Source of the DNA: Bacteroidota bacterium
Lineage (GTDB): Bacteria > Bacteroidota > Rhodothermia > Balneolales > HLUCCA01
Direction of reading: 5' to 3'
Assembly (NCBI GenBank): GCA_020832235.1
Contig: JAFIEZ010000018.1
Location: 248,001-312,000, forward strand
DNA length: 64,000 bases
Part shown: positions 11,017 to 12,486 of the stretch, piece after piece
How positions within the stretch are numbered: position 1 is the stretch's first letter
Layout: every line of letters begins with the position of its first letter
Notes under the pieces: model-generated
Databases searched by the model: none
Seen by the model: the letters and a program-made list of their open reading frames with translations, nothing else
What the model was told of the DNA's origin: nothing
Made by a program: the position numbers and the translations under genes

Positions 11017-11343
11017 GAACCCCTTGGTCTTTGTCGGAATTACGGAAATAGGCTGGGGAAATAATCGCAATACACCTATGCAAGATTGCAGCCGTTCTGT
11101 CGGCGAGGAGGTTGGAATCCGTTCAGCCATCCTGGTAAAAACATTGAAAATCTAACATCAGACTTTAGAATTTTAATATACTTGGTCAATATAGTCTTGA
11201 AAATCTAACACCAAACTTTAGAGTTTCAACTTAATTGACCACTATTACTTTGAAAATCTAATATCGAACTTTAGATTTTCCACATTTATGCTATCTTTAT
11301 AGAACCGGGAGCAAACAAATACTTTTGTCTCAATACAAAGAAG
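11017..11343 (+). promoter_or_regulatory. control region of the AAA/DUF4143 gene
   Basis: These 327 bp without a gene lie between the esterase stop and the ATPase start. The first ~125 bases show nothing recognisable. Bases 11144-11280 carry three palindromic repeats at a constant 53-base spacing (separate entry), which makes the stretch a likely operator or promoter region for the ATPase gene 64 bases further on. Confidence 0.55.
11144..11280. repeat. three imperfect palindromic repeats, period 53 bp
   Basis: Units at 11144-11174, 11197-11226 and 11250-11280 share the pattern TTGAAAATCTAA, seven variable bases, CTTTAGAnTTT; each unit is itself an inverted repeat (GAAAATCTAA against TTTAGATTTTC). 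Unit starts are exactly 53 bases apart, about five helical turns. The two spacers also carry short mutually inverted elements (GGTCAAT in the first, ATTGACC in the second). Confidence 0.85.
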
Positions 11344-12486
11344 ATGGTTATAAACAGACCTGCATTCATCGATGATATTAAAACATCTATAAGCAATAAT
11401 CCTATTACAGCCATAATGGGCCCACGTCAGTGTGGGAAAACCACCCTGGCCCGCACAATTGCTCGAACTACCGATAGTACTATTTTTGACCTTGAAGACC
11501 CCTCTGATTATGATTTATTAAGTGAACAGCCCAAAGTCATTCTACAGCAACACAAAGGTCTGATAATTCTGGATGAGGTACAACGCCTTCCAGACCTGTT
11601 TCCACTGCTTCGGGTGTTGGCAGATGAGCCAGACTCTCAAAGAAAATTCTTGATTCTTGGCAGCGCCTCCCCTGATTTGGTTCAAAAATCTTCAGAAAGT
11701 CTGGCTGGAAGAGTCGGATTTATACATCTGACCGGATTCAATTTATTTGAAATCGGAATCGAAAACATTGAACCACTATGGCTGCGCGGCGGGTTTCCAA
11801 AGGCCTATCTTGGTACAAATGACGAACAAAGTTACTCGTGGAGGGAAAATTTTATCCAAACATTTTTGGAAAGAGATATCTCGAATTTCGGGTTTAATAT
11901 TCCTGCGGTTACGCTCAGGCGATTCTGGCTGATGCTCGCACATTACCACGGTCAGATATGGAATGGTGCGGAATTTGCCCGCGCTATGGGGATTTCGGAA
12001 CCAACCGTTAAAAGATATCTTGATATTCTTACCGGTACATACATGATCAGGCAACTTCAGCCCTGGTACGAAAACATCAAAAAAAGACAGGTAAAAGCCC
12101 CAAAAATTTATCTCCGAGACACTGGTATTCTTCATACCCTGCTTGGAATGGAAGGTCGTTCGATTATTACGAATGTAAAATCAGGTGCCTCCTGGGAAGG
12201 CTTTATAATAGAACAACTGGTCTCCAGACTAAAAACACGTGATTTCTATTACTGGAGAACGCATACCGGAACAGAGCTGGATTTAATGGTTCTGAAAGGC
12301 GGCAGAAGATTGGGATTTGAGATTAAATATTCTGAAAACCCAACATCAACCCGATCCATGCATACTGCTCTGGATGATTTAAAACTAGACAAACTGTACG
12401 TTGTGTATAAAGGTCACAGAGTACTTTCATTTGATGAGAAAATTACTGCTGTTCCCGTGTCCAATATCGTTGATTTCGACTTCTGA
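11344..12486 (+). CDS. AAA-family ATPase with C-terminal DUF4143
   Basis: 380 residues. The N-terminal P-loop domain (AAA_14) has Walker A 'GPRQCGKTTLA' at about residue 25, Walker B 'GLIILDEVQRLPDL' at about 80 and sensor-like 'FLILGSASPDL'. A helical/winged-helix part follows ('FARAMGISEPTVKRYLDIL', about 220). The C-terminal DUF4143 is nuclease-like in layout: 'FYYWRTHTGTELDLMV' then 'LGFEIKYSENP', the D-x-n-E-x-K arrangement of PD-(D/E)XK folds. The family is widespread, often strain-variable, and its biological role is unknown. It stands alone between two blocks of CAZyme genes on a different strand from the block that follows, which suggests insertion into the locus. The winged helix and the upstream palindromes suggest autoregulation; this is inference. 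Confidence 0.9.
   Translation: MVINRPAFIDDIKTSISNNPITAIMGPRQCGKTTLARTIARTTDSTIFDLEDPSDYDLLSEQPKVILQQHKGLIILDEVQRLPDLFPLLRVLADEPDSQRKFLILGSASPDLVQKSSESLAGRVGFIHLTGFNLFEIGIENIEPLWLRGGFPKAYLGTNDEQSYSWRENFIQTFLERDISNFGFNIPAVTLRRFWLMLAHYHGQIWNGAEFARAMGISEPTVKRYLDILTGTYMIRQLQPWYENIKKRQVKAPKIYLRDTGILHTLLGMEGRSIITNVKSGASWEGFIIEQLVSRLKTRDFYYWRTHTGTELDLMVLKGGRRLGFEIKYSENPTSTRSMHTALDDLKLDKLYVVYKGHRVLSFDEKITAVPVSNIVDFDF

Follow-up and report, generated by a model that had tools for sequence, protein, structure and literature searches.

Upstream of a gene for an AAA_14 + DUF4143 ATPase, the 64,000-nt window (the whole stretch of DNA analysed here) carries three regularly spaced palindromes, and related genes in many phyla are preceded by a palindrome of their own. 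The bases of these sites vary together with residues in two regions of the protein. We consider it likely that palindrome and gene form a portable, autoregulated ATPase-nuclease cassette, in which the three palindromes of the window would act as a helically phased operator array for the downstream ATPase.

The palindrome array and its gene

The direct repeats start at 11144, 11197 and 11250, at intervals of 53 and 53 bases, and at this spacing the three copies are identical at 25 of 31 positions. The best agreement in 300 Markov shuffles, over spacings of 32–89, was 14. This bears out the sequence-only reading, which had described three inverted repeats at an exact spacing of 53 bases as too regular for chance, and chance repeats were ruled out. 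Taken as a 33-nt inverted repeat, copies 2 and 3 have 11 matches among their 12 outer base pairs; copy 1 has a degenerate right arm (TTTAGAATTTTA). Alignment with relatives extended the full sites to 37 bp. The inverted short elements noticed earlier in the two spacers are present as well, and the midpoint of the pair coincides with the middle of copy 2. Between the end of copy 3 and the ATG lie 59 bp. The features of the locus are:

11142–11178, + strand: copy 1 of the candidate operator palindrome, 37 bp, with a degenerate right arm; promoter-like TTGAAA-N16-TAGAAT at 11144–11171
11183–11190, + strand: spacer element TGGTCAAT, inverted partner of 11234–11241
11195–11231, + strand: candidate operator palindrome, copy 2, 53 bp on; promoter-like TTGAAA-N16-TAGAGT at 11197–11224
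11234–11241, + strand: spacer element ATTGACCA, inverted partner of 11183–11190, the pair centred on copy 2
11248–11284, + strand: candidate operator palindrome, copy 3, 53 bp on; promoter-like TTGAAA-N16-TAGATT at 11250–11277; copy also present in the G002 orthologue
11344–12486, + strand: AAA_14 + DUF4143 ATPase, 380 aa, PADLOC PDC-S01 (Pfam and PADLOC profile matches)
11419–11442, + strand: Walker A, residues 26–33 (GPRQCGKT), from the alignment of relatives
11560–11577, + strand: Walker B, residues 73–78; D77 and E78 in 161/161 relatives
11968–12036, + strand: winged-helix region, residues 209–231, with the recognition helix at 219–231; residues 209, 218, 219 and 220 covary with site positions 10–13
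12244–12297, + strand: beta-hairpin of the PD-(D/E)XK-like domain, residues 301–318, whose tip residues covary with the site (307 with position 5, 308 with position 2)
12280–12327, + strand: putative nuclease residues D313, E326 and K328, from conservation; E285 at 12196–12198

The pattern GAAAATCTAA-N6..12-TTTAGA had three matches in the 3.38-Mb genome, every one at this locus, and its reversed control had none. The window palindrome is thus private to its locus, the reverse of repeats scattered over the genome without the gene.

The ATPase matched AAA_14 (E 7.7e-26, 91.1 bits, curated cut-off 27) and DUF4143 (E 5e-45, 153.5 bits, curated cut-off 28.1) in Pfam, and no NCBIfam family above cut-off. 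Seven PADLOC PDC-S01 models matched, the best with E 1.9e-86. Both Walker motifs are intact. An AlphaFold model built from 79 sequences reached a pLDDT of 94.9 and a pTM of 0.92; the single sequence gave a pLDDT of 37, and our structural statements rest on the 79-sequence model. Residues 219–231 form the second helix of a helix-turn-helix, the position of a recognition helix, and residues 307–310 are the tip between strands 301–306 and 311–318 of the nuclease-like domain. The C-terminal domain has the PD-(D/E)XK signature (acidic-acidic-x-K in a beta-hairpin core, modeled strands 311–318 and 321–328), and its residues are nearly invariant among relatives (E285, D313 and E/D326 in 161/161, K328 in 160/161). 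Conservation and model support a putative PD-(D/E)XK-like nuclease, in line with the winged helix and nuclease-like C-terminus first read from the sequence. K328 is missing from a single relative, the G002 orthologue (L007, EVTFS), where the palindrome is still present. The nearest solved folds in Foldseek were an archaeal Walker ATPase (2qen), RuvB, ORC and STAND ATPases, all partial matches with a best TM of 0.51.

Sites at other DUF4143 genes

Palindromes also stand at other DUF4143 loci, each with its own version. The same-genus orthologue in G002, 77% identical at the protein level, carries a single copy of the window palindrome, and more distant genes have palindromes of different sequence in the same place. 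These sites share a geometry of ~37 bp, CCWTGNAAAT-N17-ATTTNCAWGG, with a half-site spacing of 17 in 149 of 177 sites. A second spacing of 10 proved to be an artefact of 7-bp repetition within half-sites.

A site was found just upstream of 91% of 177 DUF4143 genes, compared with 0.6% farther upstream, 3.4% downstream and 5.6% of shuffles. The scoring motif was derived on part of this phylum set; in a separately sampled multi-phylum set, gathered by protein pattern alone, 90% of the loci had the site. The ~9% of genes with low scores include some whose site sits farther up. With a motif-free inverted-repeat score, the threshold being the level passed by 1% of shuffles, 68% of 99 relatives passed against 4% of regions farther upstream; across many phyla the figures were 46% and 1%. 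Distant DUF4143 genes (68 loci) had palindromes with other cores in 44% of cases, versus 3%. Before two such genes in two genomes (L279 and L283) there was an identical 58-bp palindrome with 26-bp arms, apparently a different, longer type of operator.

We also searched 394 genomes of the phylum with a strict pattern, which was found in 27 places (reversed control 0). Nineteen of these precede intact DUF4143 genes. At one place (L148 in G382, 1501–1674) an intact palindrome lies beside a DUF4143 gene broken into two fragments; the related G406 has a complete gene at the matching place. At another (L138), the palindrome adjoins the 3' end of another DUF4143 gene. Four places (L129, L130, L136 and L139, position 1501) are true palindromes with no adjoining DUF4143 gene; they may be scars of gene loss, or may work in trans. 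The L130 palindrome is similar to the operators at L094 and L100, two loci of its genus. The last two places were barely palindromic and were taken as chance.

About 16 loci had several copies. Their lags were 53 or 54 bp (nine and eight counts), and 106–108 bp for double steps, although the letters of the sites vary between loci. A lag that holds across differing sequences makes the spacing of five helical turns look selected, and this phasing suggests that protein occupies a single face of the helix. Sites five turns apart would allow the molecules bound there to cooperate.

Residue–base covariation and the proposed reading of the site

Covariation was calculated as mutual information with background correction for 161 gene–site pairs (effective number 94). 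Inner bases tracked the winged helix: site position 11 with residue 219 (z 12.5), position 12 with residue 220 (z 10.8), position 13 with residues 218 and 220 (z 8.6 and 8.3), and position 10 with residue 209 (z 6.9). Outer bases tracked the hairpin tip: position 2 with residue 308 (z 11.8) and position 5 with residue 307 (z 7.8). Nearly all remaining pairs had z ≤ 5.

The residue–base tables are chemically sensible. With N308, position 2 was A in 62/62 half-sites, with Q308 A in 32/32, with H308 G in 18/18, and with D308 C in 14/14. For residue 219, H went with G (80/80) and D with C (28/32). Families with H308 have mostly CCGTG and those with E308 CCCTG, and L003, a paralogue in the genome of the window, obeys the code with Q308 and CCATG sites.

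In 71 disjoint closest pairs of relatives, residue and base changes coincided for five residue–base pairs, with p from 3.3e-5 to 0.013 (residue 220, 3.3e-5; 308, 2.7e-4; 209, 3.3e-4; 219, 0.013); residue 307 was not significant in this control (p 0.16). With relatives of >50% identity left out, residue 308 predicted position 2 in 80% of half-sites, to be compared with the commonest base, which makes up ~43% of left half-sites, since the computed baseline of 0.19 is lowered by a near tie of A and T. A Mantel test of site against protein distance over the whole set was weak, because the distances saturate (rho 0.10, level with the best of 300 permutations).

The covariation of palindrome bases with two regions of the protein makes it very probable that the protein binds the palindrome at its own gene. 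Together with the family-wide co-occurrence, this covariation strongly supports the earlier proposal that the ATPase itself binds the window palindromes. Presumably one dimer would sit on each palindrome, each half-site being read by two parts of the protein: the winged helix (209, 218–220) would contact the inner bases, and the hairpin tip (307–308) of the PD-(D/E)XK-like DUF4143 domain the outer CCWTGN bases. We infer that binding may be switched by ATP and that the nuclease may have an effector function.

Parts of this arrangement are known from other systems. Autoregulated winged-helix/HTH repressors and toxin-antitoxin operators likewise have a palindromic operator over their own promoter, read by the gene product, but here the gene product predicted to do so is an AAA+ ATPase, whose PD-(D/E)XK-like domain apparently reads half the site. 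Type II restriction endonucleases would offer a parallel for base-specific palindrome reading by such a domain; they differ from the long, bipartite 37-bp site at the promoter of an ATPase, and no methyltransferase partner was seen adjoining the window gene. STAND and archaeal Walker ATPases (2qen, MalT, Apaf-1) and the ORC/RuvB AAA+ proteins combine an ATPase with a winged helix, whereas the window protein has no sensor repeats and carries a C-terminal nuclease-like domain. REP palindromes and their RAYT transposases are also tied together in a mobile-looking unit. Such an element was rejected, as the three copies in the genome all lie at the window locus, on one side of the gene and unscattered, and Pfam gave no Y1 transposase domain.

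We take COG1373 to be the AAA_14 + DUF4143 family. COG1373 is listed among the genes that are shared through recent transfer (PMC10782964). The family shares its sequence and its fusion of an ATPase to a PD-(D/E)XK domain with PDC-S01, a phage-defence candidate made up of a single gene, which is very abundant (9,986 matches in Archaea and 29,494 in Bacteria, among the commonest defence-type matches), with validation pending for most PDCs (PMC12988326; for context see also PMC13356809). Its published description is without the private palindrome and the residue–base code seen here. In the literature searched, which included few subscription papers or preprints, there was almost nothing on the DUF4143 family and no function, ligand, DNA target or operator for it; within that literature, palindrome and code are new for the family. 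Two Mycobacterium locus tags gave no functional lead.

Promoter overlap, co-inheritance and alternative readings

The palindrome overlaps the promoter of its own gene. In the named loci, a TTGACA-like hexamer tends to fall in the left arm, at offset 2, and a -10-like hexamer either at offset 25, within the right arm, or at offset 37, immediately after it. At several loci the site centre is TTGACA, with TATAAT-like letters directly after and the start codon 12–14 bases on. Unlike copy 3 of the window, the site adjoins the ATG directly in many relatives, and loci where it ends immediately before the ATG are the largest single class, which suggests leaderless transcripts. All three window copies score as promoters, and the 401-bp region had eight promoter matches on both strands, where 1.3 were expected. 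A Bacteroidota promoter (TAnnTTTG within the palindrome) was rejected as a sufficient explanation, since many other phyla have this core too, there with sigma-70-type elements. We infer that this overlap favours repression over activation. Autorepression is probable, and the ATPase most likely limits its own expression because the sites overlap its promoter.

Site and gene also travel together. Between the window and G002, only 11250–12484 is common DNA, from copy 3 to the stop codon. One genus had several pairs of 86–96% identical copies at different loci, in which the common DNA is confined to a stretch that starts shortly before the palindrome and finishes with the stop codon. Homology limited to this stretch indicates that palindrome and gene are one heritable unit, which would make them a single portable, self-regulated cassette. 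At one locus the gene was present in two genomes of a genus, and most other members kept the flanks without it; the intergenic DNA there was replaced, so that the comparison gave no clean ends. Relatives at 41–72% identity occur across many phyla, on 278 plasmids and on some viral contigs. In the genus of G113 (65 genomes) there are many DUF4143 genes per genome, some of them fragmentary, and a ~200-bp gene fragment of PD-(D/E)XK type, which is repeated, lies beside one of them (L088, about 1193–1393).

Autoregulation alone leaves the nuclease signature unexplained. The palindrome could instead be a recognition or cleavage site for movement of the cassette, which the PD-(D/E)XK domain cuts or nicks so that palindrome and gene are copied together, up to the stop codon, to new locations, with autoregulation secondary. 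We regard this as unlikely. The shared boundaries, the absence of the gene between conserved flanks, the wide transfer across phyla and the near-invariant putative nuclease residues adjoining the base-reading hairpin would fit it, but in the loci compared the 3' end bore neither a palindrome nor any other repeat, and neither target duplication nor a clean empty-site junction was seen. Equal boundaries could also arise if scattered copies exchanged genes by homologous recombination, or if a minimal cassette were under selection. Of the mobile unit proposed in the sequence-only reading, co-inheritance of site and gene between unrelated loci stands, whereas no transposition ends were found. Quite improbable is a nuclease of defence or competition that cuts incoming DNA with the same palindrome (rival cassettes, plasmids or phages), its own copies being protected or serving as a sensor. 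The PDC-S01 match, the plasmid-borne relatives and a Thermus relative that was up 6.6-fold in a plasmid-carrying strain (PMC4406477) speak for it. Against it, an intact chromosomal site lies beside the gene, so that cutting would harm the host, no target outside the cassette was found, and PDC-S01 is only a candidate defence system (PMC12988326). Of the defence-like unit suggested earlier, the match to a defence candidate stands.

A role for the palindromes as RNA hairpins of the mRNA leader is very improbable. They can fold, and lie 60–200 nt before the ATG in the window, but a site that covers the promoter, as it does in many relatives, would not be transcribed in full. The fixed 17-nt spacing and the 53-bp phasing are features of the DNA helix, and outer and inner bases follow protein residues; on promoter overlap, spacing and covariation we rejected this reading. 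The chance that the repeats are random or belong to an unrelated host regulator is practically negligible: the shuffles exclude the former, and the sites are private to the ATPase gene, with bases that covary with ATPase residues. It is conceivable, if fairly unlikely, that these are single-gene selfish or defensive cassettes in which one palindrome is at once the operator, the recognition site of an ATP-gated PD-(D/E)XK nuclease and the end of the moving cassette.

If that last reading were true, the residue–base code would tell which DNA tens of thousands of family members bind, and perhaps cut. For the autoregulated cassette that we prefer, a base-reading PD-(D/E)XK-like domain would be unusual in an autoregulator. 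With an own site at nearly every sampled member, the residue–base rules give a predicted DNA target per gene, which would be the first readable DNA target for a very common protein family of unknown role.
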